Source: Virgibacillus natechei
GTDB lineage: Bacteria > Bacillota > Bacilli > Bacillales > Amphibacillaceae
Reading direction: 5' to 3'
NCBI RefSeq assembly: GCF_026013645.1
Contig: NZ_CP110224.1
Coordinates: forward strand, 558,001-622,000
Length of the DNA stretch: 64,000 nucleotides
The notes under the pieces were generated by a model, which saw only the letters and a list, made by a program, of their open reading frames with translations, did no database searches and was not told the origin of the DNA. Of this stretch, positions 37,766 to 61,997 are shown piece by piece. The position numbers and the translations under genes are program-made. How positions within the stretch are numbered: position 1 is the first letter of the stretch; each line of letters opens with the position of its first letter.

Positions 37766-37948
37766 ATGTATCCCCCATCGACATAATAAACATTTCTTCT
37801 TATATCGACAACTTCTATCTGATTATTAAGTACTATTCATTTTAAAATGAAATTTCTAACAGTTGAAACCTAACTCGAATATATAGTAATATGACAAATT
37901 GTGTGCTCAACCGAAGCAGACAATTAATCCGTTAGATAGGTGATTTAC

Positions 37949-38461
37949 ATGGTATATTCTGCTTTTATGGAGAAGCCAAAAGATACAGATGAAATAAAAC
38001 AAGAACTGGATTCATTAGAAATACAATTATTCCGAATGCAAAATAATATGAAAGAAATTGCGAAAAGTTCAGAAATTATTAGCATTGATCAAGCAAGAGA
38101 TGAACAATGGGTAATTATTTATGCCGATAAAAAAGAGGGTGTATTTCAAATTATGCTTCATGACTGCACAAAACCTTATCGAGGAAAATGGAACTCAGCT
38201 ATTCAAGCAGAATATAAAGATGAGCATACGATTCATATTGCAGATATAAAAGGGGAAGAAAACAAAGGTTACGGATCTGTTCTATTGAAACATTTAAAAG
38301 AAACGGCACGAGAGAAGAATGTCCAAGCAATTACCGGTGATATTGTAAAACGAGATTTCGACCACGTTAACCGGTTGAAGTATTTTTACAACAAGCATGA
38401 CTTTGATGTACAGATTGATCATCAAAAACAGTATGGAAAGATTGTTTGGAAGGATGATTGA
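37949..38461 (+). CDS. GNAT-like acetyltransferase domain protein
   Basis: 170 residues. The N-terminal helix (about 10-45, coiled-coil like) precedes a domain whose later part has IKGEENKGYGSVLLKHLKE (acetyl-CoA motif A with G-x-G-S) and VNRLKYFYNKHDF (motif B). Substrate is unknown. AGGTGAT precedes the ATG at 37949; the GTG at 37940 lies in the ribosome site. The last roughly 120 bases of this gene are duplicated at 52335-52455. Confidence 0.7.
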   Translation: MVYSAFMEKPKDTDEIKQELDSLEIQLFRMQNNMKEIAKSSEIISIDQARDEQWVIIYADKKEGVFQIMLHDCTKPYRGKWNSAIQAEYKDEHTIHIADIKGEENKGYGSVLLKHLKETAREKNVQAITGDIVKRDFDHVNRLKYFYNKHDFDVQIDHQKQYGKIVWKDD

Positions 38462-38463
38462 GG

Positions 38464-38497
38464 GGCTATTTTTGTATGAAGTAGCCTGTTTTTTTGA
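38464..38497 (+). terminator. Terminator of the GNAT-like gene
   Basis: GGCTA / TAGCC stem with a 13-base loop, then TGTTTTTTT. Confidence 0.6.
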
Positions 38498-38498
38498 C

Positions 38499-38532
38499 GC
38501 AGATAAAAACTTTCTTACTGCATAAGCGTGGG
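38499..38532 (+). repeat. Dispersed repeat family 2, partial copy
   Basis: GCAGATAAAAACTTTCTTAC followed by TGCATAAGCG; the left hairpin arm is deleted compared with the copy at 21718. Confidence 0.6.
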
Positions 38533-38640
38533 CTAGGATATTCGACTAACATACTCTATGGTATGTTTACTTGTGGATTGGCACCATAATTTTAAACAAA
38601 ATAAATCCTTTGAAAACTCCTCACCGCGCAGGTTAAGGCT

Positions 38641-39771
38641 TTAATTTAGTTTGGCTTTTTTCCATTGCTTGTACCATTTAGTTACACTCGGACTAACCTC
38701 TAAACTCAGTTCATCCAACGCCTTTTCCAATTGATGATACTGCCGGTTTATTTGTAAACCGAATCCCAGCCTTCCATATAATTTCATTAATGAAAAGTGA
38801 GCATCTTCCTCTTCCGGACTTGTGGTACAAATTTTAACATACCACGCTTCTGCCTTTTCCAAATTATCCTGCTTATCATAATAACCTGCCATTTGATAAG
38901 CGGTTTTTAGCCATAGCTGTTCTAATCGATACCGCTCTGCTTCCACCCATAAATAGTCATACTCCTGTAAATAGGCACCCGTATATAATTTCATGATTTC
39001 TTCATAACGGTCTATGGTTTCTGAATTAAGTGGCAGAGCAGATTTTAGCTTATTTTCCCACTTGACCAGATCAATGAAAACATTTTTTGTAGATAAAACG
39101 TAGCCTTCTCTCATGTTCTCTATCTTAAAATGGCTGCTGTATTTATTTATTATTTTTCGTATATGATATATTGCTGTGTATAATTGTGAATATGCTCTGT
39201 CTTCTTCAAAATCTGTCCAAATTAATTCGACCAGTTCTGATTTACGAATCGTTTTATCACGGTGATGAAGTAAGTAGAGAAATAATTCCTGGGATTTTGT
39301 AGTTCGCCATTGAACGAATTCAGGTTTCCCATTTATAAATTCGAAACGAAGCTCCCTGGATACATTTATCCGCAGCATTTTGTTTTTTATGAAAGGTTTA
39401 TGTATTCGATTATTTACCTTTAATTCCACTCTTTCCAGCGTTTTTTTCAAGCGCTCCAATTGGATGGGTTTAAGAACATAATCCAATGCATTTAATTCAA
39501 ATGCTCGTACGGCATAATCATTAAAAGCGGTCACAAAAACAATGGAAATGTCCGCGTTAATTTCCAGTATTTTTTCTGCCAGTTCAAGCCCATTAATCTC
39601 AGGCATTTCTATATCTAAAAATATAACATCTACTTCCTCCAAGAGAGTAGCATTCTTCTCGAGGACCAAGTTATTAAATCTTCCAATTACTTCAATACTG
39701 CCAATTTTATTTACTTGGAGTTCCAGAAATTCCAAAGCGAGTGCTTCATCATCCACAAGAATTGCTTTCAT
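38641..39771 (-). CDS. SARP-like response regulator (receiver, winged helix, BTAD)
   Basis: 376 residues. The receiver (1-120) has AILVDDEA, phospho-acceptor Asp in IFLDIEMP, FVTAF and LKPI. A winged-helix segment (about 150-230: ELFLYLLHHRDKTIRKSELVE, then YTAIYHIRKIINK) follows, then a bacterial transcriptional activator domain of helical repeats (about 240-365: YLQEYDYLWVEAERYRLEQLW, EEDAHFSLMKLYGRLG). This combination is the SARP-like regulator type seen in bacilli and clostridia. AAGGAGGG precedes the ATG. It is divergent from the giant adhesin and near a hybrid kinase, which is its likely phosphodonor (inference). Confidence 0.88.
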   Translation of the reverse strand: MKAILVDDEALALEFLELQVNKIGSIEVIGRFNNLVLEKNATLLEEVDVIFLDIEMPEINGLELAEKILEINADISIVFVTAFNDYAVRAFELNALDYVLKPIQLERLKKTLERVELKVNNRIHKPFIKNKMLRINVSRELRFEFINGKPEFVQWRTTKSQELFLYLLHHRDKTIRKSELVELIWTDFEEDRAYSQLYTAIYHIRKIINKYSSHFKIENMREGYVLSTKNVFIDLVKWENKLKSALPLNSETIDRYEEIMKLYTGAYLQEYDYLWVEAERYRLEQLWLKTAYQMAGYYDKQDNLEKAEAWYVKICTTSPEEEDAHFSLMKLYGRLGFGLQINRQYHQLEKALDELSLEVSPSVTKWYKQWKKAKLN

Positions 39772-39866
39772 AAGGCTTCCCTCCTTGGTATATTTCTAGA
39801 CTCCATTATACAGTTGTAGTGCTAGGAAATAAAAGAATTGCGCGCTTATTTTCCATTATTAATCTA

Positions 39867-39902
39867 TTTGTAGATAATTTGTAGAGTATTACCTTATATA
39901 CT
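39867..39902 (+). promoter_or_regulatory. Candidate SARP-type operator and -10 for the adhesin gene
   Basis: TTTGTAGA occurs twice (39867-39874 and 39878-39885) with an 11-base period, 11 bases upstream of TATACT (39897-39902). No -35 is present. SARP activators of Streptomyces bind direct heptamer repeats with 11-base spacing near the -35 position, so this is a likely target of the adjacent regulator. Confidence 0.5.
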
Positions 39903-39956
39903 GTCTCTTGGGTATGGCATTAGTGCTATTCATATAAGGAAGGAGAGTATGTGGAA

Positions 39957-42900
39957 ATGAACAAACGATTAAGCATTCTGTTTATATTTATGCTGACCTT
40001 TCAGACGATTTCCGGTAGTTTATTTTTACCCTCACAAGCTGCAGCAGAGGGATCGGATTCGGAGCAAAGCGTTTTTACTGGAATATCGTTCACAGATGAA
40101 GATGGAAAAGCAGTAAATAATGACGAAATGGATGGCGAATCAGCAGTGAATGTTCATGTTGATTGGTCAATTGAGCATGTAGAAGTAGAAGAGGGAAGCA
40201 CTGATTCATTTTTACTTCCAGATGAATTACATATGGAAGAGGAACAACAGGGTGCATTAACAGATGGTGAGAAAGAAGTTGGAACTTACCAGGCTGCTAT
40301 GGATGGAGAAGTGTCGGTTAGTTTTAATGATGTGGTTGAGGAATACACAGCAGCAGAAGGAACCTTTGTTGTAAATGCTGTAGCGGTTGAACAACTAGCA
40401 GATCAGGGTGAAGAAGCTGTTGAAGAAGAGGGGTCAGAAGCAAATCAAGAGGAAGAAGTAGTTGAAGAAGAGTTTGAAGAAGCAGCAACAGAAGAAGACC
40501 CCGAGAAGCAAGAAGCAGAAGCGATTGACGAATCTGACGAACAATCGTTGAATTCTGAGGAAATAGTTGAAGAAGACAATGCGCTGGAGGAAGACATTAC
40601 AACTTTTAATGCCTCAGCAGTAGAATCACTTGATGGGAATCTTTCAGAAAATATATTCACTTTCGTAAGTTTGACTCATTATGGTAATGAAATTGTGGAT
40701 GGATCATTTGTCGACATTAGTGATGGAACACAAGTAGAGATTGAATTTGCTTGGGATACCGAAGGACTTGATGTTCAAAGCGGAGACACTGTTTCAATGC
40801 AGTTACCTGATACTTTTGAACAAGTCACTACACCGAACACACCTATAGTTACAAGTGGTACCACAGTTGGAACGTACAGTATTCAAGATGGTGAATTGAT
40901 ATTTGTATTTGACGACACTATTGAAGATGGTGATGTTTCCAACGGAGAAGTTGGCTTGAATTTAGACTTTAACTTACAAAAGTTTGAAGAAAACATTGAA
41001 CAAGTCATTCAATTTAGTGACTCAGATAATACAGAGATTAATGTTATGGCTAGACCCACTAATACTGCAGAAGATATTACAAAAGAAGGACATCCAGATC
41101 AAAGTCACAACGCAAGTGAAATTACTTGGACTGTCGAGGTAATTAATAACAGTGATGAAGCAGTATCTGATGCTACATTATCAGACGTTTTACCTGATGG
41201 TCTAGGTTCTCCAGAGAATTTCGTTGTAACAGAATTATCTACTGGATTAAATGGTGACAAAGCTATTGGTGAAGTAGTTGATGATATTTCACCAAGTGTT
41301 GATGGTAATGAATTCAACTTTGCATTTGATGATTTGGAGCCTTATCAAGGATATCGTATAGAATATGCTACGGCTGTTACTGATAGGGATCAAACAGAAT
41401 TCACAAATGATGCTACATTTTACAATGGTGAAGAGAATTTGCTTGCAGACGCGACTGTGTCTGGTCTGACTGCAAGTAATCCAGTTGAAAAGTCTGGTTC
41501 ATATAATAATGAAACAGGTCAAATAGATTGGACAATCGTAGCAAATGAGAATGGTTTTAATATCGAAAGTGCAATCATTGATGATGATCTACCAGCAGGA
41601 TTGACTGTCGATGGAGACACATTAACAGTTGAAAAATATGTTGATGGTTCTCATGATGAAAGTATAAGAATTGATACAAATGATTTCCCAATTGAACTTG
41701 GAGGAACAGATGCAAATGAACATTATGTAATCAACTTTAGTACAGATATTGATTATGAAGAGGTTAACGAAAGTGAATATCAACGTGAAAACAGCTTTAC
41801 TAACGTTGCCACTTTAAAAGATGGTGATGAAGAACTGGCTGAAGATGATACAACTGTTGAATTTAATAGAGAACCGCTTTTAGAAAAATCAGGTGAATCT
41901 AATGTTGACTATGAAAATAAAACGTTAAGTTGGACAATTGATGTAAACAAAGCGCAACATCCGCTTAATGAACTTGTAATTACAGACATGATTCCAGCAG
42001 GCTTAAGCATCACGGAAGAAGATATCGTAATTACTAACGAAAATGAAGTTACTGTAGAAGCAGATATTGAAATCATAGATGATGATCAACAAGAAGTTGT
42101 TATCAATCTTAGTGATGTTGGTACACAACATATAACGATAGAGTACACAACAGAGATTGAAGATTTTGAGATTGATAGTTTCAAAAATGCTGTTGGCATA
42201 GGCGGGGACGGTATCGGTGAAGGTGACCATGATACTGGTGCACAAATTAATCCACCAGGAAACTCTTTTGGAAAGACTTATGTAGAAGATAGCATAAACT
42301 ACAATGAAAAGACCATGGAATGGCAACTTACAGTTAATCCTCGACGTGAAGCTATAGATGAGCTGCAAATAGTAGACACATTTCCTAATAAGGGATTGAT
42401 TCTATTACCAGGTACATTGAGTATTACAGTAGACGGTCAGGATATTACAGGTAGCGTTGATCTTTCTCCAAATACAGAGGATGGGGAAACGGGCTATCAA
42501 AAAGGATTTACGCTTGATTTTGATGACCGCACTTTACCATTAAATAATAATGTAATTGTCACGTATAAAACGTCCTATGATCCACAAGAGGAAGTCGAAG
42601 GTGATTTTCTAGATCCACATGAAGGTGAAGAGCAAAATCAAATATATGATAACGAGGCTCTATTCACTGGAACCACTGTTAATGAAAATGACTTCGAACC
42701 AGTTAGAGCTGATTATGTAGAGGTGAGAGAAGACTCCTGGAACAGTGGTAAAAAGGAAGGTCAGCTCGTAAGCGTCGATGAAGAAGGAAATATAGTAAAT
42801 GATAATGATTGGCAGAGCGGTTCGGAAAGAAAAATTGCTTGGCAACTATTTACTAACTACCAACAACAAAATCTTGGAACAGGTGTTGTGATTACAGATA

Positions 42901-45900
42901 CCTTGGAGTATGAAGGTGCGATTGATGAAGGTAGTGTCACAGTGACTGTTTATGATGTTGATGCCGATGGTGACACATCAATTTCTGAGGACGCTACTGT
43001 ACTAACTGAGAACGAAGACTATACAATTGAGCACGCTGGTGACGAGTTTACTTTAACATTCAATGATGATTTTACTGTCGACGAAAGATATGTTGTTGAA
43101 TTTACAACAACAGTACCAAACATTTCCCAAGAAAATTATACGAACGAAGCGACAGTTTCAGTTGGTGATGACGAGTATCCGTATACTGGTACAGTCAGCT
43201 ACGATAACTATAATAACTTCTTAGATAAATCAGCGATTGGGCAAGAAGGTTCTGAAGTTTATATTGGTGATAAAGTTAATTGGGAAGTTAAAGTAAATGA
43301 TAGCTTATCCATTATCAATAATGCAGAAATTAAAGATATCATTAGTGATGGAATGGAATATGTGGAAGGCACACTTGAGATTTCAACAGGAGACGGTAAT
43401 TCACTAAATGAAGGCGAAGACTACATCTTTTCGAATACCAAAACTGAAGATGATAGAACAATCCTTTCAATTGAACTTAGTGAATCACTAAACCAAGCAC
43501 TAAACCAAGCACTGACTCTAAACTATACAACAGTAGTCACAGCAGAGGATGGAGATACAGTCAGCAACGAAGTTAGTTTAAATGGAGAAGATATTGAAGT
43601 AGATTCTATTAGTTCTCAAGAACTGACTGCAGAAGAATTTAGTTGGGTATCTGGTGAATTTAACGAAAACCGCGGGGCATTGCAAATTGTCAAAGCCGAC
43701 TCTGAAACAGGAGACCCAATTGAAAATAATTCAGCTACGTTCGAGTTGTATTATGATTTAAACGGAGAGCGTGTGCAATTTGGCGACCAGTTTGAAATAG
43801 AAGAAAATGGTGAAATCGTGATTGGTAACTTACCACTTAGAACATATTACTTACAAGAAGTAGAAGCACCTACTGGCTATACCATTGATGAAGAAGAGCA
43901 AGTAATCGAGGTTACTGAGCCATACGGTAATGAAGAACATGTTTATGAATCGGAATTTTTAAACACTAAGATAAAAACAGATATCTCAGTTACTAAAGAA
44001 TGGGATGATGCTGACAACCAGGACGATTTACGTCCGGGATTTATTGAAGTTCAGTTGCTCGCGAACGATGAGGAAGTTGGAGATGCGCAGACACTTTCAG
44101 ATGACAGCGAGTGGGCACATACTTGGACAGATTTAGATGAGTATCAGTCTAATGGACAAATAATTGACTATACAGTTGAAGAAGTTAATGTACCTAATGG
44201 TTATGAGTCATCAATTGATGTTGATGAGGATGGCTATATAACTATCACTAACTCTCATGCACCGGAAATGACTCAAGTTTCAGTCTCCAAAGAATGGGAT
44301 GATGCAAATGATCAAGACGGTGTCCGTCCAACTAATGTAACGGTAAATCTATTAGCTGACGGTGAGATTGAAAGTCAAACTGTTTTAAATGAAGATAAAG
44401 ATTGGGAACACCTATTCGCCGATCTTCCAGTATATGAAAATGGAGAAGAAATCAGCTATAGCGTCACGGAAGATGCAGTGACTGATTATTCAACAGATAT
44501 TAAATTTACTGGAACAGAGGAAGAACCAGCTTATACGGTAATAAACTCCTATACACCAGGAGAAACAAGTGTGACCGTAACAAAAGCATGGGATGATGCA
44601 GACAACCAAGACGGTAATCGCCCAGAAACACTCGAAGTTCAACTTTTAGCAAACGGTGAGGAACACGGTAATCCTGTAACTCTAGATGGATCTGATTGGT
44701 CCCACACATGGAATGAACTAGATGCTAATTCAAATGGTGAACCAATCGAGTATACGGTTCAAGAAATTGAAGTTCCAGAAGACTATGAAGTAAGCGTGAA
44801 TGACGATGACCACGGAAACATCATCATTACAAACAGTTACGAACCAGAAACAACGGAAATAGCTGTAAGTAAATCATGGGATGATGCAAATGATCAAGAC
44901 GGTGTCCGTCCAACTAACGTAACGGTAAATCTATTAGCTGACGGTGAGATTGAAAGTCAGACTGTATTAAATGAAGATAAAGATTGGGAACACCTATTCA
45001 CCGATCTTCCAGTATATGAAAATGGTGAAGAAATCAGCTATAGCGTCACGGAAGATACAGTGACTGATTATTCAACAGATGTTAAATTTACTGGAACAGA
45101 GGAAGAACCAGCTTATACGGTAATAAACTCCTATACACCTGGTGAAACAAGTGTAACCGTAACAAAAGGTTGGGATGATGCCACTAACCAAGATGGTAAT
45201 CGTCCAACAAGCATTGAAGTTCAATTAACAGCAGATGGAGAAGCCCATGGTGAGCCTGTAACGCTAAATCAATCGAATTGGACACATACGTGGGGAGAAT
45301 TAGATGCCAATGCAAATGGTCAACCAATCGAGTATACGGTTCAAGAAATTGAAGTTGCAGAAGGCTATGAAGTCTCTGTAAATGACGCGGACCATGGAAA
45401 TATTATGATTACAAACAGTTATGAACCCGAAACAACGGAAAGAACGGTTCGTAAAGCATGGGATGACGCGGATAATCAAGATGGGATCCGTCATGATAAT
45501 GTAACAGTCAATCTATTAGCTAATGGAGAGGTTGTCAGCACAACCGTTTTAGATGATGAAAATGACTGGCAGCACACATTCTCTAATCTTCCAGTAAATC
45601 AAAATGGGGAAGAAATTAATTATAGAGTGACAGAAAATAACGTAGCCAATTATACGGCTTCCATTGATGCCGATCCAGACAATGAGAATGGATTTGTTAT
45701 CACAAATAGCTATACACCAGAAGAAACTGCAGTAACCGTAACAAAAGCATGGAATGATGGAGACAATCAAGATGGTAATCGACCAGATACAATCGAAGTA
45801 CAGCTTATTGGAAATGATGAAGAAATTGGAGATCCAGTAGAAATAGATGCATCCAATGATTGGACGCACCAATGGACTGGATTAGATTTAAATGAAGACG

Positions 45901-48900
45901 GGGAAGCAATTGAATACACGGTTGTAGAACAAGATGTACCTGAAGAATATACAGTAACAGTGAATAATAATGATCACGGTAACATCATTATTACAAATAA
46001 TTATACGCCTGAAGTAACAGAAATTCCTGTTACCAAAGTATGGGATGATGATAAAGACAGAGATCGCGTTCGTGCATCAAATGTGAGAGTAATTCTTCTT
46101 GCAGATGGTACAATTGTTGAAGAATCAATATTAAACGAAGCTCGTGATTGGGAGCATACATTCACCAATCTTCCTGTGTATGAAGATGGGACGGAGGTTA
46201 ACTACAGTGTTACGGAGTTAACCGTTCCAGAATATTCTACTTCGGTTGAAGCGGATGATGATGGATTTGTAGTGACAAACTCTTACACACCAGAAGAAAC
46301 AACAGCAACCGTAATAAAAAATTGGAACGATGCCGATAACCAAGATGGTATCCGACCAGAAAGTATCGAAGTTCAATTAACAGCAAATGGCGAAGCAACA
46401 GGATATCCAGTAGAAATAGATGCAGAAGATGGATGGACGTATACTTGGGATAGTCTTCCATTAAATGCAGATGGTGAAGCAATTAACTACTCTGTTGAAG
46501 AACTTAATGTACCAGAAGGATATGAAACTGCAGTAAACGATGAAGATCATGGCAATCTCATCCTAAAGAATAATCATACACCTGAGGAAATTAATATTAC
46601 TGGTACGAAAAATTGGGATGACGCCGATAACCAAGATGGCATTCGTCCGGAAGCAATTACAGTAAACTTATTTGCAAACGACAACTTTGTCGAGTCAGTA
46701 AATGTAACAGAATCAGATGAGTGGAACTATAGCTTTGAAGACCTGCCGAAATTCGAAGCAGGCGAGGAAATAAATTACACGATTACAGAGAATAAGGTGG
46801 AAGGATACGAACCTGAAATAGACGGATTCGATATTACCAACACCCATACACCTGAAGTAATCGATGTAAATGGTACGAAAACATGGGATGACGCCGATAA
46901 CCAAGACGGCATTCGCCCAGAATCAATCACCGTAAACCTGTTAGCGGATGGCGAGCCAATTGACTCTACTGAAGTAACAGCAGATGATGATTGGTCATAC
47001 AGCTTCACAGAGTTACCGAAGTTTGAAGCAGGTGAAGAAATCGTCTACACAGTTACAGAAAACACAGTAGAAGATTACACACAAACCATCAATGGATTCG
47101 ACATCAAGAACGAATACACACCAAGCAAAACAGCAGTAACGGTAACGAAGAACTGGGATGATGCGTTTAACCAAGATGGCATCCGACCAGAAACGATTGA
47201 AGTTCAACTAACAGCTGACGGGGAAGACCAGGGTGAACCAGTAGAGCTATCTGAAGATAACAACTGGACACACACTTGGACGGAACTAGATGAAAAAGCA
47301 GCTAGTGAACAAATTGTTTACTCTGTTGTAGAAGTTACAGAGTTAGGGGAATATGAAACGACTACCGATGACGAAGATCACGGAAATATTATCATTACAA
47401 ACAGTTACACACCAGAAACAACAGCAGTAACTGGTACAAAAACATGGGATGATGCTGAGAACCAAGACGGCATCCGCTCAGAATCAATCACGGTGAACCT
47501 CCATGCAAATGGTGAAGCAATTGATTCAGAAGAAGTAACAGAAGAAGATGATTGGAGCTACAACTTCGAAAACTTGCCGAAATACGAAGCAGGTGAAGAA
47601 ATAACTTACACAATTACAGAGGATGAGGTAGAAGGTTATGAAACCGAAATAAACGGATTTGATATCACGAACACCCATACACCTGAAATGATTGATGTAA
47701 ATGGTACGAAAACATGGGATGATGCGAACAACCAAGACGGTATCCGTTCAGAATCGATTACAGTCAATCTACATGCTGATGGTGACTTAGTTGATACTGC
47801 TGAAGTAACAGCAGCAGACAATTGGAACTATATGTTCACAGATCTACCGAAATATAAAGATGGAACAGAAATAGATTACACAATCACAGAAGAAACTGTA
47901 GAAGCTTATGAAACCGAAATCGACGGATTTAATATTACAAACAGCTACACACCAGAAACAACAGAAATAACTGGAATAAAAACATGGGATGACGCTGACA
48001 ATCAAGATGGTAATCGTCCAGACTCAATTACAGTGAACCTGTTAGCAAATGGTGAGCAAGTTGATTCAGTTGAAGTAACCGCAGAAGATGATTGGGAATA
48101 TAGTTTCATAGATTTACCAAAATACGAAGCGGGTGAAGAGATTGTTTACACGGTTACAGAGAACCCTGTAGAAGGATATACACAAACAATCGATGGATTC
48201 GACATGACGAACCAATACACACCAGGACAAACAGCAGTAACGGTAACAAAAAACTGGGATGATGCAAACAATCAAGATAGCATCCGCCCGGAAGTAATCG
48301 AAGTTCAATTAACAGCAGACGGTGAAGAACAAGGTGAGGCAGTAGAGCTTTCTGATGAAAATAACTGGACACACACTTGGACGGAACTGGATGAAAAAGT
48401 AGCAGGAGAAACAATTGATTATTCAGTAGTTGAATTAACAGAAGTACCCGAGTATGAAACAACAGTGAATGATGCTGATCATGGAAACATCATCATCACC
48501 AATGCCTACACACCGGAAGAAATAGAAATCTCTGGTACAAAGACATGGGAAGATGCTGATAACAAGGACAACACTCGTCCAGAATCCATTATAGTTAATA
48601 TTTTGGCAAATGGAGAAGTCGTTCATTCAATTGAAGTAACCGAAGCTGATGATTGGAATTATAGCTTCACAAACTTGCCGAAATACGAAGCTGGAAAAGA
48701 GGTCGTTTACTCTGTTTCAGAGGATACTGTAGAAGGTTACGAATCGAGAGTGGAAGGTTATGACATCACAAACACTGTAATACCTGTTACTCCAGAAACG
48801 GAAGAGCTAGGAGGAACTACACCTGATTCTACAGACAAACCAAGTGGTTCAGCAGAAGAAGTATCAGGTACAACAGAACCAGCAGATACAGCTAGAGATA

Positions 48901-49022
48901 CTGGCAGTAAATTACCAGATACAGCAACAAATATGTTTAATTTACTTGTGCTTGGAATTGGGTTGTTAATCGTTGGGATTGTTATATTACTAGCTTATAG
49001 AAGGAAAGAAAAAGCTTCATAA
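39957..49022 (+). CDS. Giant Cna-B repeat surface adhesin with LPDTA sorting signal
   Basis: 3021 residues. A signal peptide (about 1-31, ending SQAAAEG) is followed by an extremely acidic Glu-rich segment (about 145-205). Residues about 210-1235 form roughly eight related adhesion-type domains (SDVLPDGL, DDLPAGL and DMIPAGL recur, DUF11/isopeptide style). A SpaA-like domain follows at about 1238-1335 (ALQIVKADSETG ... VEAPTGYT). Then come 17 Cna-B domains (about 1341-2943), each with a VTK-x-WDD start, an internal Y-(T/S)-V-x-E and an ITNSYTPE end: the Lys, Glu and Asn of self-made isopeptide bonds. A Ser/Thr linker, LPDTA (2986-2990), a membrane helix and RRKEKAS end it. It is a wall-anchored stalk-like adhesin. 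AAGGAGAG lies 9 bases before the ATG at 39957. Confidence 0.95.
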   Translation: MNKRLSILFIFMLTFQTISGSLFLPSQAAAEGSDSEQSVFTGISFTDEDGKAVNNDEMDGESAVNVHVDWSIEHVEVEEGSTDSFLLPDELHMEEEQQGALTDGEKEVGTYQAAMDGEVSVSFNDVVEEYTAAEGTFVVNAVAVEQLADQGEEAVEEEGSEANQEEEVVEEEFEEAATEEDPEKQEAEAIDESDEQSLNSEEIVEEDNALEEDITTFNASAVESLDGNLSENIFTFVSLTHYGNEIVDGSFVDISDGTQVEIEFAWDTEGLDVQSGDTVSMQLPDTFEQVTTPNTPIVTSGTTVGTYSIQDGELIFVFDDTIEDGDVSNGEVGLNLDFNLQKFEENIEQVIQFSDSDNTEINVMARPTNTAEDITKEGHPDQSHNASEITWTVEVINNSDEAVSDATLSDVLPDGLGSPENFVVTELSTGLNGDKAIGEVVDDISPSVDGNEFNFAFDDLEPYQGYRIEYATAVTDRDQTEFTNDATFYNGEENLLADATVSGLTASNPVEKSGSYNNETGQIDWTIVANENGFNIESAIIDDDLPAGLTVDGDTLTVEKYVDGSHDESIRIDTNDFPIELGGTDANEHYVINFSTDIDYEEVNESEYQRENSFTNVATLKDGDEELAEDDTTVEFNREPLLEKSGESNVDYENKTLSWTIDVNKAQHPLNELVITDMIPAGLSITEEDIVITNENEVTVEADIEIIDDDQQEVVINLSDVGTQHITIEYTTEIEDFEIDSFKNAVGIGGDGIGEGDHDTGAQINPPGNSFGKTYVEDSINYNEKTMEWQLTVNPRREAIDELQIVDTFPNKGLILLPGTLSITVDGQDITGSVDLSPNTEDGETGYQKGFTLDFDDRTLPLNNNVIVTYKTSYDPQEEVEGDFLDPHEGEEQNQIYDNEALFTGTTVNENDFEPVRADYVEVREDSWNSGKKEGQLVSVDEEGNIVNDNDWQSGSERKIAWQLFTNYQQQNLGTGVVITDTLEYEGAIDEGSVTVTVYDVDADGDTSISEDATVLTENEDYTIEHAGDEFTLTFNDDFTVDERYVVEFTTTVPNISQENYTNEATVSVGDDEYPYTGTVSYDNYNNFLDKSAIGQEGSEVYIGDKVNWEVKVNDSLSIINNAEIKDIISDGMEYVEGTLEISTGDGNSLNEGEDYIFSNTKTEDDRTILSIELSESLNQALNQALTLNYTTVVTAEDGDTVSNEVSLNGEDIEVDSISSQELTAEEFSWVSGEFNENRGALQIVKADSETGDPIENNSATFELYYDLNGERVQFGDQFEIEENGEIVIGNLPLRTYYLQEVEAPTGYTIDEEEQVIEVTEPYGNEEHVYESEFLNTKIKTDISVTKEWDDADNQDDLRPGFIEVQLLANDEEVGDAQTLSDDSEWAHTWTDLDEYQSNGQIIDYTVEEVNVPNGYESSIDVDEDGYITITNSHAPEMTQVSVSKEWDDANDQDGVRPTNVTVNLLADGEIESQTVLNEDKDWEHLFADLPVYENGEEISYSVTEDAVTDYSTDIKFTGTEEEPAYTVINSYTPGETSVTVTKAWDDADNQDGNRPETLEVQLLANGEEHGNPVTLDGSDWSHTWNELDANSNGEPIEYTVQEIEVPEDYEVSVNDDDHGNIIITNSYEPETTEIAVSKSWDDANDQDGVRPTNVTVNLLADGEIESQTVLNEDKDWEHLFTDLPVYENGEEISYSVTEDTVTDYSTDVKFTGTEEEPAYTVINSYTPGETSVTVTKGWDDATNQDGNRPTSIEVQLTADGEAHGEPVTLNQSNWTHTWGELDANANGQPIEYTVQEIEVAEGYEVSVNDADHGNIMITNSYEPETTERTVRKAWDDADNQDGIRHDNVTVNLLANGEVVSTTVLDDENDWQHTFSNLPVNQNGEEINYRVTENNVANYTASIDADPDNENGFVITNSYTPEETAVTVTKAWNDGDNQDGNRPDTIEVQLIGNDEEIGDPVEIDASNDWTHQWTGLDLNEDGEAIEYTVVEQDVPEEYTVTVNNNDHGNIIITNNYTPEVTEIPVTKVWDDDKDRDRVRASNVRVILLADGTIVEESILNEARDWEHTFTNLPVYEDGTEVNYSVTELTVPEYSTSVEADDDGFVVTNSYTPEETTATVIKNWNDADNQDGIRPESIEVQLTANGEATGYPVEIDAEDGWTYTWDSLPLNADGEAINYSVEELNVPEGYETAVNDEDHGNLILKNNHTPEEINITGTKNWDDADNQDGIRPEAITVNLFANDNFVESVNVTESDEWNYSFEDLPKFEAGEEINYTITENKVEGYEPEIDGFDITNTHTPEVIDVNGTKTWDDADNQDGIRPESITVNLLADGEPIDSTEVTADDDWSYSFTELPKFEAGEEIVYTVTENTVEDYTQTINGFDIKNEYTPSKTAVTVTKNWDDAFNQDGIRPETIEVQLTADGEDQGEPVELSEDNNWTHTWTELDEKAASEQIVYSVVEVTELGEYETTTDDEDHGNIIITNSYTPETTAVTGTKTWDDAENQDGIRSESITVNLHANGEAIDSEEVTEEDDWSYNFENLPKYEAGEEITYTITEDEVEGYETEINGFDITNTHTPEMIDVNGTKTWDDANNQDGIRSESITVNLHADGDLVDTAEVTAADNWNYMFTDLPKYKDGTEIDYTITEETVEAYETEIDGFNITNSYTPETTEITGIKTWDDADNQDGNRPDSITVNLLANGEQVDSVEVTAEDDWEYSFIDLPKYEAGEEIVYTVTENPVEGYTQTIDGFDMTNQYTPGQTAVTVTKNWDDANNQDSIRPEVIEVQLTADGEEQGEAVELSDENNWTHTWTELDEKVAGETIDYSVVELTEVPEYETTVNDADHGNIIITNAYTPEEIEISGTKTWEDADNKDNTRPESIIVNILANGEVVHSIEVTEADDWNYSFTNLPKYEAGKEVVYSVSEDTVEGYESRVEGYDITNTVIPVTPETEELGGTTPDSTDKPSGSAEEVSGTTEPADTARDTGSKLPDTATNMFNLLVLGIGLLIVGIVILLAYRRKEKAS
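43975..48785 (+). repeat. Seventeen tandem Cna-B coding repeats
   Basis: Units of roughly 260-295 bases. Adjacent units tend to alternate between two types. The stretches 44278-44575 and 44860-45157 are almost identical at DNA level, 582 bases apart, showing recent duplication of a two-unit block. Confidence 0.9.
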
Positions 49023-49069
49023 TATGGCATACTCATTAAAACGAATCATTTCTTTAATTCGTAAAAACC

Positions 49070-49110
49070 AAAAAAGCTTTTCACATCTAAGTATGTGAAA
49101 AGCTTTTTTG
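49070..49110. terminator. Bidirectional terminator between the adhesin and sensor kinase genes
   Basis: AAAAAGCTTTTCACA / TGTGAAAAGCTTTTT, a perfect 15-bp stem with an 8-base loop. Confidence 0.95.
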
Positions 49111-49138
49111 CTTATTTGATAATATATACAAATTCTAT

Positions 49139-52100
49139 TTATCTACTTAAGTCTTCTTTAATCGGAATTTGAAACGTCACGGTAGTTCCGTGGTTAGGTG
49201 TGCTTTGGATAACCAACCCTTTCCCGTATCGTTTCTTTAATCGGCGGTTTGTATTTGCGATTCCAATCCCATCTTTAATGTTCGTTTTCTCACTAAGGAT
49301 TTCTTGTAATTTTTCTGGCTCTATTCCTACGCCGTCGTCTATAATCGCTAGTTGAGCGTAGGAGCCATGGTCCGTAATGTGAATAGAAACGGTTCCACCA
49401 TTTACTCGATGAAGTACACCATGATTTACAGCATTTTCAACAATTGGTTGTATGGATAATGGCGGAACTTCAATAAGTAAATCATCTACCTGCCATTTGA
49501 CTTGCAGCCTATCTCCAAAACGTACTTGTTGAATATATAAATAAGAGCGAGTAAGATCAAGCTCGTTCTCTAAAGGACCTAGCATTTTTGTTGTATTTAT
49601 ATTAAAGCTTCTTCGTAAATAATTGCCAAATTCATTTAGAAGTTTAACCATTCTGGCTGTATCAATTTCACTTAGTGAAGCAATAGTATTTATTGTATTA
49701 AATAAGAAGTGTGGATGGATTTGTGCTTGGAGCAAGGCAGCTTCCATCCTGAGTTGCTCATGAACTGACTTTTTCACATCCGTTAAAGCTTTAACGCGAG
49801 CTGTCAATTCCATTGTATCCATCGGTTTCGTTACATAATCGTTAGCACCTGAAAGAAACCCTGTATAAATATCTTCCGATTGGTTTCGTGCAGTTAAAAG
49901 CAATATAGGCAGTTCGGATACAGAAAACTGCTCACGAATAATTCGCGTTAATTCATAGCCGGACATGTTCGGCATCATCACATCAGAGATGACCAAATCC
50001 CATTCTTCTGCATCAATAAGTTGTAAAGCTGTTTTTCCGTTCGTTGCTGTAGCAACATAATATTCGGCCGAAAGTATATTAGATAAAATCTGTAAATTAA
50101 TTGGATCATCATCAACAACCAATATCTTAGCTATGCTTCTGTAGGTTTTGGATAAAGACGCAGCAGAATCACTGACTATTTTATCCGATTCAGTGGACAG
50201 TTCAACTGGATGAATGGATGCAGCTGCTTCTAGACCATCTTTTGTTTCTTTTGTCGACTTGCCTGCTAATGGTAAGGTGAAAGAAAAAATAGATCCTTTC
50301 AAAAGGGTTGATTCTACAGAGATCTCACCACCATGCAGTTCCACTAATTGCTTGGAAATACTGAGCCCTAACCCGATCCCACCTCCAATGGAAGTCATAC
50401 TGCTATCTTCTTGTGTATAAGCCTGGAAAACTTTTCTTCTGATTTCTTCGCTCATTCCAACTCCAGTATCTTTCACGTAAACAGTAGCCATTCCATTTTT
50501 GTGATCAGCTTCTATGGTGATCCGTCCATGATTCGTATATTTGACAGCATTATGGATTAAATTAAATAAAATTTGAATCAAGCGATTTTTATCTGCATCT
50601 ACCTTAGGAAAAGAATCTGGAATATTTAGTTGTATCTGTAAGTCTTTGGCCTCTGTCATAAAACGGATCATATCAATTACACCAAAGGCAGTCGTATTAA
50701 GGCTAACAGGTTTTCTGACCAGCTGAATATGATACTCTTGTAATCGTGTTATATCAACAATATCATTCAGTGTATATGTCATTCTCTTACCTACACGTAC
50801 AAGTGTTTTTAAACTCTCCTTGTTTTTTGGGCTTAATGATTCTGTTTCATCATTCAGAATCGTTTGCGTTATATTGATCATCCCATGGAGTGGATTTCGT
50901 AATTCATGTGAAGTGTTCGTTAAAAATTCATCTTTTTTCTTATCTGCCTCCTGAAGCTCTTTCGTTTGTTCTTCATTTAAACGAGTCATATCAATATGCC
51001 GTTTAAATAAGAGAAATGCGATAGCAATAATGGAAATAATAAAATCAAATGGATAATAAGGAATGTTACTCAAGTTAAGTTTGATTAATGCCCCCCAAAT
51101 TGTGTTTGAAGTGTAACTTGTAATGAAAAGAAGTATAAAGATGGCATCCATAGAGCCATTTCGAATAAATTGTATTGTTTTGACAAATAAAAATATAATC
51201 CCCAAAATATAGAAAATTGCAACGAATATTCCAAAATAGAGAAAATGTTCAAAAGGAACGATCCATTCACTGATGGATAAAAGGATATATAGCGTAACAA
51301 GAAATGAAAAAAATCGTGTTTTCAACTGAAATAAGTGTTTAATAAAAGTAAGCATAACGATTAAGGTACTATTCATTAAAAATAGTAGTAGTTTGAAATA
51401 GGTTTCAATATGAATTGGTAGTTGTAATACAATATCATCGTCTATTAAAATAGTAAAAGCACTTATTAGAAGCATTAAACCGTAATAAAATTCTTTTTGG
51501 TACCTTCCTTTACCAAAATAATATACGCTAAAAGCATACACACCGTGTAACAGTAAAATGACACTGACAACAATTTGTAAGGTTGATGACGCTGTCGATT
51601 CTTGCGTAATTGCTGATTCTGTACCAATTCTAACAGATTCAGAGATTCCACCCCAGAAGGGAATTTCATGATTGGATAGATGTATCGTCAGGTTCACTTC
51701 ATTATTGCTTGTATGAAATAATGTGTTAAATGGACCAGGTTTTCCCTCTGAATCATTCGCAGATTCCGCAGGTTGACCGGATTGTGTTACTAACTCCCCA
51801 TCTATATACACCTTGCTAGCTGCTGTATTTCTTTCAAATCGAATGCCGTATAGTTCCTGCTCATCTTCAGGAAGAAGGATTTTTAAATGATACGTACCAT
51901 AACCATGAGCGGGTATTTCGTTATCAGCGAATTCTTCACTCCAATCTTCTGGAACTGATATAAAATTCTTCTGTTCCTCTTTATATTGATTATTATCTGA
52001 ATCAGGATTTAGGAATTGACTTGGGTAAAATTCCCATTCACCATCAAGTGTGAGGGTTTGATTATCATTAAATGACCAATTCGTTAAATCAATTACACCC

Positions 52101-52237
52101 TTTTCGGCAGGCGGGTTATCGGGAGATTCATGATAGATAACCCAACCAACGCGAAAACTGCTAAGTATAAGTAGGAATAAACTAATTATAAGGAGAATTT
52201 TCTTCGTCGACATTGGTTTATCATTAGTCATGATCAA
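49139..52237 (-). CDS. Hybrid sensor kinase with two kinase cores (7TM, HisKA, REC, LytS-type)
   Basis: 1032 residues. An N-terminal helix is followed by an extracellular 7TMR-DISMED2-like sugar-binding-type domain (about 45-190), a seven-helix 7TMR-DISM membrane domain (about 205-415), HisKA (His in FLTNTSHELRNPLHG), HATPase_c (NLIHNAVKYTNHG, GGGIGLGLSISKQL), a receiver (about 705-820: LVVDDD, ISDVMMP, VTKP), then a second kinase of the LytS/His_kinase type (His in QIHPHFLFNTINT) with a second ATPase (IQPIVENAVNHG). The start is TTG at 52237 with AAAGGA 6 bases away. It converges on the adhesin and is the likely sensor for the SARP-like regulator (inference). Confidence 0.92.
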   Translation of the reverse strand: MIMTNDKPMSTKKILLIISLFLLILSSFRVGWVIYHESPDNPPAEKGVIDLTNWSFNDNQTLTLDGEWEFYPSQFLNPDSDNNQYKEEQKNFISVPEDWSEEFADNEIPAHGYGTYHLKILLPEDEQELYGIRFERNTAASKVYIDGELVTQSGQPAESANDSEGKPGPFNTLFHTSNNEVNLTIHLSNHEIPFWGGISESVRIGTESAITQESTASSTLQIVVSVILLLHGVYAFSVYYFGKGRYQKEFYYGLMLLISAFTILIDDDIVLQLPIHIETYFKLLLFLMNSTLIVMLTFIKHLFQLKTRFFSFLVTLYILLSISEWIVPFEHFLYFGIFVAIFYILGIIFLFVKTIQFIRNGSMDAIFILLFITSYTSNTIWGALIKLNLSNIPYYPFDFIISIIAIAFLLFKRHIDMTRLNEEQTKELQEADKKKDEFLTNTSHELRNPLHGMINITQTILNDETESLSPKNKESLKTLVRVGKRMTYTLNDIVDITRLQEYHIQLVRKPVSLNTTAFGVIDMIRFMTEAKDLQIQLNIPDSFPKVDADKNRLIQILFNLIHNAVKYTNHGRITIEADHKNGMATVYVKDTGVGMSEEIRRKVFQAYTQEDSSMTSIGGGIGLGLSISKQLVELHGGEISVESTLLKGSIFSFTLPLAGKSTKETKDGLEAAASIHPVELSTESDKIVSDSAASLSKTYRSIAKILVVDDDPINLQILSNILSAEYYVATATNGKTALQLIDAEEWDLVISDVMMPNMSGYELTRIIREQFSVSELPILLLTARNQSEDIYTGFLSGANDYVTKPMDTMELTARVKALTDVKKSVHEQLRMEAALLQAQIHPHFLFNTINTIASLSEIDTARMVKLLNEFGNYLRRSFNINTTKMLGPLENELDLTRSYLYIQQVRFGDRLQVKWQVDDLLIEVPPLSIQPIVENAVNHGVLHRVNGGTVSIHITDHGSYAQLAIIDDGVGIEPEKLQEILSEKTNIKDGIGIANTNRRLKKRYGKGLVIQSTPNHGTTVTFQIPIKEDLSR

Positions 52238-52334
52238 TTTCAGTCCTTTAATAGAAATAAGTTATATTCTACTACTATTATAGATTAATTATAAAGAATA
52301 TAACATTGTTATGTTAGCGGTTATGGATTACTGG

Positions 52335-52455
52335 TATCGTAAAACGAGATTTCGACCACGTTAACCGGTTGAAGTATTTTTACAACAAGCATGTCTTTGA
52401 TGTGCAGATTGATTATCAAAAGCGGTATGGAAAGATATTTTGAAAGGACGGTTGA
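52335..52455 (+). pseudogene. Duplicated 3' end of the GNAT-like gene
   Basis: About 120 bases matching 38344-38462 with roughly 11 differences. The translation VKRDFDHVNRLKYFYNKH is shared; it ends at an earlier stop. There is no start codon or ribosome site. It marks the right boundary of the adhesin locus. Confidence 0.9.
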
Positions 52456-52542
52456 GGGTAAATTTCTCTATTAATGAGGGGAAATCGAAGAGGTCGCTGA
52501 TCAACAAGAAGCAAGTTTTAGATAGTGGTAGCATCCATTAAG

Positions 52543-53887: not shown

Positions 53888-54024
53888 GATAAAGCATATA
53901 ATATTATTGCAAGGGTTTCAGAGGATGGAACAGGCAGCCATCACCCTTTGTTTGGAGATGCGGGAGTGCCACCCCGCCTAAACCTTGTATATTAAAGTCA
54001 TAGCATTCCCGCTATGGCTTTTGT
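53888..54024 (+). ncRNA. Unassigned structured RNA (riboswitch or small RNA)
   Basis: From a good promoter to a good terminator the sequence folds into a three-way junction: closing helix CAAGG(G)TTT / AAACCTTG, hairpin GATGG / CCATC around AACAGGCAG, and hairpin GCGGG / CCCGC around an AGTGCCAC-type loop. The terminator follows. There is no open frame. I could not match it to TPP, SAM, glycine, lysine, T-box, GEMM, ZTP, fluoride, guanidine, 6S or tmRNA motifs. The region downstream is a truncated pglZ, so if it was a leader its gene has gone. Confidence 0.5.
53996..54022 (+). terminator. Terminator of the structured RNA
   Basis: AGTCATAGC / GCTATGGCT with a 6-base loop, then TTTTG. Confidence 0.75.
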
Positions 54025-54210: not shown

Positions 54211-55017
54211 GTGGGGATGCTTTGTAATAACGCGTCAACGGAAATGGAAGTTTTCCAAGCAGCAGAGGAAACGATCAATGATATACGCGTGCTTGTTAAT
54301 AAGCTGGTGCAGAATGTCAGTGCATCGAACATTGTTATAACCGCAGATCATGGATTTATGTATCAACGAGATGCGCTTACCAAGAGTCAGAAGACACCGA
54401 AGCACATAGATGATGCAGTGCTTGCCAAACGCCGCTTTATGATAACTGATGAACCAGTGGAAGTGGAGGGAACCTTAACCTATGCAATGGATGACGTTAG
54501 GGAGCAGGAGAAAGACTTGTTTGTCACTGTTCCAAAGGGCATTAGTCGATTTGCTGTCCAGGGAGCGGGGGCGAATTTTGTACATGGTGGAGTGATGCTA
54601 CAGGAAATCGTGGTTCCTGTTATTACGTTCAAAAATGATCGCAGTCGTTCGTCAGCGAATAAAGCACGTAGAGTAGATGTGAAACTGACGACGCCAACGC
54701 GCAAAATCACCAATACCATTACGTATTTGACGTTTCTGCAAACAGCCAAGATTGAGGACAAGAAATTGCCGCTCCTCCTGAAATTGTATTTCGTGGATGA
54801 AAACGGACAACGTGTTTCAAATGAGAATATTATAATCGCTGAGAGTGTTTCATCCCAACCAGGAGATAGGACATATCGTGAGAAATTTGTATTCAAATCA
54901 ATGACTTATGACAAGCGGAAAACGTACTATCTTGTTTTAGAAGATGAGGACGAGAAGACAGATGGTTTTTATGAACGGTATCCGTTTCATATAGATATTG
55001 CGTTTGCTGGGGAATAG
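54211..55017 (+). pseudogene. pglZ: Truncated BREX phosphatase-domain gene pglZ (3' part)
   Basis: 268 codons matching only the C-terminal third of PglZ. The alkaline-phosphatase-like motif IVITADHGFMYQRDAL is present, then GISRFAVQGAGANFVHGG and LQEIVVPVITFK, and a beta-rich tail ending FHIDIAFAGE. Intact PglZ proteins of BREX systems are about 800 residues or more; the N-terminal part and all other brx/pgl genes are absent. The GTG used as start has no ribosome site. This is a remnant of a lost phage-defence island. Confidence 0.82.
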
Positions 55018-60212: not shown

Positions 60213-60250
60213 AAAACCAATCATTTAGAAATCACATGAGGAGGTTTGAA

Positions 60251-60517
60251 ATGAAAAATATTAATTCACCAGAAGAATTATATGAAGAACTGGAGAAATT
60301 GGGTAAAGACAATTCTCTTACACGGTTTTCAATTCCTGGCAAGGGGAAATTCACACTTGTTTATGAAGAGAATGAGAAAACGATTCAAGAAGAAGTGGAA
60401 GAAGATGAGGAGCTAAAACAAATGATCCATGAAAGCAGGAAGGATTATAAGGAAGGAAGATATAAGACCACAAGTGAAATTATCGAATCCATGTATAATA
60501 AGGACTTTTTTAAATGA
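60251..60517 (+). CDS. Antitoxin of a ParE/RelE-type module (copy 1)
   Basis: 88-residue acidic protein. An N-terminal helix (SPEELYEELEKLG) precedes a small beta segment (LTRFSIPGKGKFTLVYE) and a C-terminal toxin-binding tail (MIHESRKDYKEGRYKTTSEI). Translation starts at the ATG at 60251 (GAGGAGG, 6 bases). The stop overlaps the toxin start (ATGA). It has a close paralogue at 61475. Confidence 0.75.
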   Translation: MKNINSPEELYEELEKLGKDNSLTRFSIPGKGKFTLVYEENEKTIQEEVEEDEELKQMIHESRKDYKEGRYKTTSEIIESMYNKDFFK

Positions 60518-60789
60518 AGCATGTTGTTTGGTCTGAGACAGCGGAAAATAAAGTGATATTTTATAAAAGTGAGCATTATACGGTAGAAGAAACACGTGAT
60601 TTTATTGCTCGGCTTATGAGCGATATAGAAAGCCTCTTGCTAAACCCTTTCCTAAGCAAACGATACCTAGAAGATCAAGGGAAATATAAAGGAGTATCTC
60701 GCATTGTTCTTCATAAATTTATATTCTATTATAAAAAAGTAGATGATGAAATTATTGTTTTAGCCGTAAAATATCCTGGAGAAATGTGA
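60514..60789 (+). CDS. ParE/RelE-superfamily toxin (copy 1)
   Basis: 91 residues. The fold signals are a first strand HVVWSETAENKV, two helices, then NPFLSKRYLEDQGKYKGVSRIVLHKF and the closing strands IFYYKKVDDEIIVLAVKYPGEM. The overlap with the antitoxin gene and small size fit type II toxin-antitoxin modules. Whether it acts on ribosome-bound mRNA (RelE) or gyrase (ParE) cannot be told here. Confidence 0.75.
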   Translation: MKHVVWSETAENKVIFYKSEHYTVEETRDFIARLMSDIESLLLNPFLSKRYLEDQGKYKGVSRIVLHKFIFYYKKVDDEIIVLAVKYPGEM

Positions 60790-61436: not shown

Positions 61437-61474
61437 AAAACCAATCTTTTAGAAATCATATGAGGAGGTTTGAA

Positions 61475-61744
61475 ATGAAAAATATTAATTCAGCAGAAGA
61501 GTTATATGAAGAACTGGAGAAATTGGGTAAAGACAATTCTCTTACACGGTTTTCAATTCCTGGCAAGGGGAGATTCACGCTTGTTTATGAAGAGAATGAG
61601 AAAACAATTCAAGAAGAAGTGGATGAAGATGAAGAATTAAAACAAATGATCCATGAAAGCAGGAAGGACTATAAGGAAGGAAGGTACGTGACCATTAGTG
61701 AATTTATAAAATCTACCTATGAAAAGGATTTTTTCAATGAATAA
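61475..61744 (+). CDS. Antitoxin of a ParE/RelE-type module (copy 2)
   Basis: 89 residues, near-identical to copy 1 over the first 70 (SAEELYEELEKLGKDNSLTR, then GKGRFTLVYEENEKT). The C-terminal toxin-binding tail differs (GRYVTISEFIKSTYEKDFFN versus copy 1), suggesting each antitoxin fits its own toxin. GAGGAGG precedes the ATG at 61475. Confidence 0.75.
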   Translation: MKNINSAEELYEELEKLGKDNSLTRFSIPGKGRFTLVYEENEKTIQEEVDEDEELKQMIHESRKDYKEGRYVTISEFIKSTYEKDFFNE

Positions 61745-61997
61745 AGTGGTTTTGTCTGCACTTGCACGAGATAAACTGAAACGTTACAAAAGTGAATATT
61801 ATACCGAAGATGAAACCAGAGAATATTTACGAAAACTTTCAACAGAATTAGAAAGTCTTCTGCTAAATCCTTTCCCAAGCAAACGATACCTAGAAGAGCA
61901 GGGGAAATATAAAGGAGTATCTCGCATTGTTCTTCATAAATTTATATTCTATTATGAAAAAGTAGATGATGAAATTATTGTTTTAGCCGTAAAATAA
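61737..61997 (+). CDS. ParE/RelE-superfamily toxin, shortened (copy 2)
   Basis: 86 residues. It shares YLEEQGKYKGVSRIVLHKF and IFYYEKVDDEIIVLAVK with copy 1, but the next codon, TAT in copy 1, is TAA here, so the last five residues (YPGEM) are lost. The downstream bases still encode them. It overlaps the antitoxin by 8 bases. Activity may be reduced. Confidence 0.72.
   Translation: MNKVVLSALARDKLKRYKSEYYTEDETREYLRKLSTELESLLLNPFPSKRYLEEQGKYKGVSRIVLHKFIFYYEKVDDEIIVLAVK

Follow-up and report, generated by a model that had tools for sequence, protein, structure and literature searches.

A recurring sensor-regulator-adhesin module in Bacilli, with a receiver-SARP response regulator and a predicted 11-bp direct-repeat operator, as seen in Virgibacillus natechei

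SARPs are known for switching antibiotic gene clusters in actinomycetes. Their operators are direct repeats with a period of 11 or 22 bp, the last repeat lying about 8 bp from the -10 box (as described in part of PMC10936776). Here we analyze a window of 64,000 nucleotides (nt) from the genome of Virgibacillus natechei, that is, the whole stretch of DNA considered, in which a response regulator with a SARP-type output, a giant adhesin, and a double-core hybrid kinase are encoded side by side. We propose that the three genes form a recurring sensor-regulator-adhesin module, and that the regulator likely switches on the adhesin via an 11-bp direct repeat at positions 39868-39886; we put the probability of this reading at roughly 0.8. 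The features of the module are the following.

38641-39771, minus strand: response regulator, 376 amino acids (aa), with a LytR-type receiver, a winged helix, and BTAD (SARP output)
39868-39886, plus strand: predicted operator, units 39868-39875 and 39879-39886, 11-bp period, matching TTGTNNAG-N3-TTGTNNAG at 11 of 12 positions
39897-39902, plus strand: predicted -10 box, 10 nt 3' of the operator
39951-49022, plus strand: giant adhesin of the Cna-B/collagen-binding type, 3023 aa from GTG, or 3021 aa from the ATG at 39957
43983-48800, plus strand: Cna_B repeat region, 17 Pfam stretches (approximate bounds, taken from repeat motif positions)
48912-49007, plus strand: LPxTATN cell-wall sorting signal (NF058670, 47.6 bits, cut-off 32)
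49139-52237, minus strand: double-core hybrid kinase, probably of the 7TMR-DISM type, 1032 aa, HisKA-HATPase, receiver, and His_kinase (LytS-type)-HATPase

As in the SARPs (AfsR, ActII-ORF4; EmbR fold), the regulator has an OmpR-like winged helix followed by BTAD, its Pfam domains being a receiver, Trans_reg_C (26.3 bits, cut-off 26.2), and BTAD. The predicted operator likewise has a period of 11, and its gap to the -10 box is 8-10 nt, depending on where the repeated word is taken to end; binding and activation are predicted. Unlike the known SARPs, this module is the output of a two-component receiver, is found in Bacilli, has the repeat word TTGTNNAG, and has surface proteins rather than antibiotic clusters as predicted targets. 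The receiver resembles those of the LytTR systems (LytSR and BtsSR): BtsR and LytR are its best-scoring models, both below the whole-protein cut-offs, and the LytR receiver is its best sequence match in PDB. No LytTR family occurs among its three Pfam matches at E <= 0.001, the SARP module taking the place of the LytTR DNA-binding domain. The kinase shares with the LytTR systems the PF06580 His_kinase of its second core, which we take to be of the LytS type, but adds a HisKA core and an internal receiver. Its 7TMR-DISM match (PF07695) scores 28.9 bits against a cut-off of 29, that is, 0.1 bit short; of five further double-core kinases, long or partial, that were scanned, the orthologues at loci L057, L096, and L116 pass this cut-off. 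Short kinases of 605-654 aa, encoded beside regulators of the same family at L066, L111, L114, and L123, retain the LytS-type core only and represent a natural domain-deletion series.

The closest described counterpart of the adhesin is CbpA of Bacillus thuringiensis, a giant LPXTG-anchored Cna-B/collagen-binding surface protein switched by a cyclic di-GMP riboswitch (as reported in part of PMC7423583). The window adhesin is also a giant of this type. It matches Big_8, Collagen_bind (PF05737, six stretches), SpaA, and Cna_B (PF05738, 17 stretches) in Pfam, and the collagen-binding-like A region, the Cna_B repeats, and the sorting signal assign it to the Cna-B/MSCRAMM type, with ligand binding predicted. 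Of its two candidate starts, the ATG at 39957 is, by eye, better spaced from the ribosome site than the GTG. A CbpA-like cyclic di-GMP riboswitch was sought and rejected: none was found at the Rfam gathering score between 36.0 and 55.5 kb, and upstream of the adhesin there is an operator-like repeat instead. For the anchoring, a parallel exists in Bacillus cellulosilyticus, where class D sortase/LPXTA anchoring has been described (in the relevant part of PMC3617157). Similarly, the V. natechei genome has the LPxTATN signal and two sortases, both of class D and LPxTATN-specific, which match the signal of the adhesin; here the substrate is a giant adhesin and not a carbohydrase, and the sortase genes lie outside the block.

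The operator was detected in the 179-nt gap between the divergently transcribed regulator and adhesin genes, which contains ATTTGTAGA twice, 11 bp apart. When direct repeats of 9-mers were counted in 39 surface-gene upstream regions, period 11 formed a peak (12 of 39, with one to six for the other periods), and the words repeated at this period are alike across these regions, corresponding to TTGTNNAG. Among the discovery upstream regions, which were extended 30 nt into the annotated open reading frame (ORF) as were all others, 27 of 38 have a site matching at least 10 of 12 positions (1.08 expected) and 19 of 38 at least 11 (0.06 expected). These statistics include loci where the motif was spotted by eye, which does not apply to the hold-out or to the genome-level tests. 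For the hold-out we took 27 new stretches around the stronger of 59 places, leaving out places already used and most of the weaker ones; the motif, the threshold of at least 10 of 12, and the controls were fixed before reading, and the counts at 11 or more are reported additionally. Anchored surface ORFs of the hold-out have a site in 9 of 16 cases at the fixed threshold and in 8 of 16 at the stricter one. After removal of the near-duplicates L218 and L224 and of two ORFs without upstream sequence, these counts become 7 of 12 and 6 of 12, with 0.6 and 0.055 expected from dinucleotide shuffling. Other ORFs have such sites in 16 and 6 of 253 cases, respectively (Fisher test against the hold-out at 11 or more, 1.7e-6). 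The operator precedes the regulator gene itself at 4 of 61 loci (L065, L085, L086, and L104, at 11 or more). At L082 and L094 it lies at or inside the ORF start, which was probably called too early.

A second signal was found downstream of the sites. The discovery and hold-out loci contain 69 sites, of which 54 remain after position and duplication filters. A TATAAT-like sequence stands at offset 29 of these 54 sites (4.36 and 4.28 of 6 matches), the next-best offset giving 2.83 and 2.72 and the mid-range about 2.0. The -10 box played no part in the selection of sites, yet it sits at this one fixed offset. A narrower first pattern, two copies of TTTGTAG, was discarded, as the V. natechei genome has one exact and three one-mismatch sites for it against seven in the reversed control.

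The module is not restricted to V. natechei. Of 60 loci of the regulator family, 48 of them on named contigs, 45 have a kinase ORF with a match that covers the second core or more; 37 of these ORFs reach 900 aa, though not all of the kinases are necessarily orthologues. At 30 of the 60 loci, a surface protein that has 700 or more residues and an LPXTG-like or SLH anchor lies fully in view, as against 2 of 17 control loci of LytTR regulators, which are drawn in part from other genomes and differ in length. The surface protein of Paenibacillus can be an SLH-domain protein, and at some loci a sortase gene is adjacent. The three genes occur in the family members G004, G006, G019, and G020 (second locus), and also in other families, with varying order and orientation; the congener G001 has its own distant version of the module at a different place (L065). 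On the regulator tree, the window protein falls in a well-supported set of seven with proteins of Gracilibacillus orientalis, G006, G019, G121, G270, and a contig labelled Bacillus subtilis DE0224, and not with G001, whose long branch makes its placement unsure. The last-named contig also contributes the closest named relative of the regulator (50%, L080), though its label may be wrong. From the scattered loci and the regulator tree, we conclude that the module moves or is lost often. Descriptions of a receiver-SARP regulator of surface proteins in Bacilli were not found among the open-access papers listed in literature searches (subscription journals were not covered); the remark of the initial annotation that no described system has this composition agrees with those papers as listed, but other genomes have this composition as well.

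At the genome scale, we searched for an exact composite of two TTGTNNAG words and TANNNT. Within the order, it is present in 14 of 47 genomes with the regulator family and in 5 of 252 without it, the reversed pattern being present in 1 of 47 and 5 of 252; some of these genomes had also supplied discovery or hold-out loci. Among 398 Bacilli genomes, a sample partly overlapping the first, the composite is present in 56 of 117 genomes with the regulator and 4 of 281 without (reversed, 0 of 117 and 4 of 281). Since the counts equal those of the reversed control, the pattern is at chance level in genomes lacking the regulator. Congeneric genomes are not independent, which lessens the weight of these counts, but the contrast stands by genus (16 of 39 with the regulator, 1 of 107 without). 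The adhesin site of V. natechei is the only one in its genome at one mismatch or fewer to the composite, and thus the predicted regulon here is this one promoter.

Several observations weigh against this reading. Below the threshold of 10 are 11 of 38 discovery surface genes (for instance, those at L061, L084, and L103), and half of the hold-out surface genes are below 11. Surface-like ORFs cut by the end of a hold-out stretch have sites in 2 of 4 cases at 10 or more and, on the unfavourable side, in 1 of 4 at 11 or more. When the hold-out upstream regions are reversed, 1 of 16 has a site at 11 or more, yet 4 of 16 have one at 10 or more. None of the 47 kinase upstream regions has a site at 11 or more. 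The exact composite is missing from 61 of 117 regulator-bearing genomes, including that of V. natechei with its one mismatch, where at two mismatches the 17 matches are noise compared with 29 in the reversed control. Finally, 11 of 29 further sites that were read, all from genus f68 g166, precede genes of CheY-like receivers and not of surface proteins; thus the regulon would reach beyond surface proteins. At L300, L302-L304, and L308-L312, the operator precedes such genes, by eye those of single-domain receivers, sometimes in tandem. Two congeneric genomes, G114 (L257) and G221 (L258), have an operator elsewhere than at the regulator locus; the protein encoded behind it shows, at L257 and by eye, a LysM-like stretch.

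As an alternative, the repeat could be the site of another regulator of the OmpR/PhoP type, or a variant of the core promoter, with the BTAD regulator acting on other targets. For PhoP, a member of the OmpR/PhoB family, the binding sites are likewise direct repeats, made up of 7-bp motifs spaced by 4 bp (according to PMC4832192), and the exact pattern does occur in the 5 of 252 and 4 of 281 genomes without a detected BTAD regulator, though no more often than when reversed. We consider this explanation unlikely given the co-occurrence with the BTAD family by genome and by genus, the location of some sites ahead of the BTAD regulator gene itself, and the density of sites, which is 0.19 per 20 kb at the LytTR control loci and 0.81-0.84 at the BTAD loci. 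The recurrence of the module, the operator-like repeat, its fixed distance to the -10 box, and its co-occurrence with the regulator family are established by the genome comparison. Because of the operator enrichment, the fixed -10 offset, and this co-occurrence, the response regulator very likely controls the adhesin, and the corresponding prediction of the initial annotation is well supported by comparative operator evidence.

Under the proposed control of the adhesin by the response regulator, the kinase would sense some envelope or ligand signal, and its second, LytS-type core would phosphorylate the LytR-type receiver of the regulator, a step that the first core and the internal receiver may modulate. 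The phosphorylated regulator would then bind head-to-tail over the -35 region and recruit RNA polymerase as SARPs do. After export of the adhesin, one of the two class D (LPxTATN) sortases would attach it to the wall.

A further peculiarity of the locus is a direct repeat of the end of a neighbouring gene, which brackets the module.

37940-38461, plus strand: intact GNAT-like gene (173 aa), directly followed by a terminator-like stretch of its own
38338-38480, plus strand: repeat copy 1, the 3' end of the GNAT-like gene
52332-52474, plus strand: repeat copy 2, a decayed fragment of the GNAT-like 3' end

The repeat, the gene order, and the gene sizes given in the initial annotation proved to be real, and its estimate of about 11 differences in 120 bases compares with 12 in the 123 nt of the coding part. 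Its label for the gene is weakly supported, as the best GNAT match in Pfam has E 0.006, below the cut-off. The two copies (143 nt, 87% identical, E 1.4e-45) are the sole pair more than 5 kb apart at E <= 1e-3 in a self-BLAST of 34-57 kb, and the only two matches in the 3.87-Mb genome; between them (38463-52331) lie exactly the three genes. A stretch of 55 nt (38345-38399) is identical in both, with the differences clustered 3' of it (simulated P for an identical run of at least 54, 0.008), and may mark a gene conversion or a crossover point. Copy 2 has a premature stop. Homologues of the GNAT-like gene occur in 13 of 40 other genomes searched, and we read the neighbourhood in eight of the 13, 15-19 kb each. 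Within the 111 nt compared, the copies differ at 10 sites, and at nine of these more of the eight relatives side with copy 1. Copy 2 agrees with its own copy 1 at 101 of 111 nt, and the best relative agrees with copy 1 at 86; since copy 2 is closer to copy 1 than the relatives are, the duplication seems to postdate the split from the sampled congeners. Foreign origin of copy 2 was ruled out, as it matches any of the relatives at no more than 82 of 111 nt. The terminator-like stretch after the gene resembles, by eye, that in the congener G002 (L049).

On the left of the GNAT-like gene, pepT, a rhodanese-like gene, and tag (names here are readings of translations, not results of a family search) are retained in all eight relatives, and a chemotaxis-receptor gene in five, with a fragment in a sixth. 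The regulator, adhesin, and kinase are absent near the gene in all eight, within the 15-19 kb read. None of the right-hand window genes is kept there, except that G002 has, just 3' of the gene, a relative (42% identity) of the toxin-like small ORF 60514-60789, and G001 has a 30% ABC-ATPase match farther away. The arrival of the 14-kb block as a unit at this gene, suggested in the initial annotation, is thus plausible: the left genes are kept, the three genes are absent, and the duplication looks young. One route would be single-crossover integration of a circular DNA carrying the GNAT gene end. Two points tell against insertion: the empty site, with the GNAT-like gene joined to the exporter gene that adjoins copy 2, was not found in the eight relatives, whose right flanks differ, and the block 38463-52331 contains neither an integrase nor a recombinase. 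The annotation had expected this junction in relatives lacking the block; all eight do lack the three genes, but the exporter gene is beside the GNAT-like gene in none. The G+C content of the block, 0.374, is near that of the flanks (0.384 and 0.374), and thus composition shows no sign of transfer.

A site-specific integrative element, with the GNAT 3' end as attachment site and the 55-nt stretch as its core, is a very unlikely source of the block. An identical core, a diverged 3' part, and a regenerated gene end do resemble integration into the 3' end of a gene, but besides the missing integrase, the changes in copy 2 are mostly derived and include a stop, as decay predicts, the regulator matches no plasmid or phage record at E <= 1e-30, and no comparable flanking gene-end repeat was seen elsewhere when each of the 60 regulator loci was compared with itself. 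The distant repeat pairs seen at several of these loci (L056, L061, L064, L066, L103, L112, L126, and L127 among them) look like dispersed intergenic or mobile repeats. The same lack of the repeat at other loci, the absence of the exporter gene beside the GNAT-like gene in relatives, and the position of the regulator in a mixed-family clade away from the congener, which fits transfer at any time, would also agree with a fragment at 52332 that is unrelated filler (a templated insertion or the remnant of an older local duplication), the genes having been assembled or acquired separately and the flanking being coincidental. This remains a serious but doubtful alternative, as the copies bracket exactly the three genes and nothing more, and the left breakpoint is the gene end where synteny stops.

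In either case, the repeat is local while the three genes recur elsewhere, in many genomes without a repeated GNAT end, a finding that the initial annotation itself had named as refuting; the repeat is therefore not part of the system. It is likely the local scar of one lineage-specific insertion, with no role in the switch.

To the right of the block, a skipping-rope RNA (RF02924, 52.4 bits) was detected at 53914-53984 on the plus strand. The match of the plus-strand ORF 54211-55017 to PglZ is confined to the C-terminal region (residues 590-850 in a model of 855 positions), and the ORF is probably a defence gene of the BREX type in truncated form. A small unit of two genes occurs twice in tandem, at 60236-60789 and 61460-61997 on the plus strand, the copies being alike by eye. 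Its second gene matches ParE_toxin in the second copy, and these are probably duplicated toxin-antitoxin pairs; in the first copy, the second gene is the one with the relative beside the GNAT-like gene of G002.

On balance we favor, with some reserve, a wider view, in which the receiver-SARP regulators of Bacilli are an undescribed family. Its members, in many genera, would use the same operator code, in which two TTGTNNAG words with an 11-bp period stand 10 nt ahead of the -10 box. Together with a double-core 7TMR-DISM kinase, and attached to whichever giant surface protein the host encodes, they would form a portable surface-display switch independent of the anchor (LPXTG, LPXTA, or SLH). 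In V. natechei, the GNAT repeats might also allow loss of the whole module through a single recombination event. The general feature is in the promoter, and the conspicuous GNAT repeat is most likely a scar confined to this locus. What the locus points to is a SARP DNA-binding module that in Bacilli is controlled by a two-component receiver and whose operator can be predicted; this operator provides a sequence rule for finding switched-on surface proteins in genera where little is known of adhesin regulation, and makes the mechanism of SARP activation testable in Bacillus subtilis. The set would act as a portable switch for displaying predicted adhesive proteins on the cell surface.

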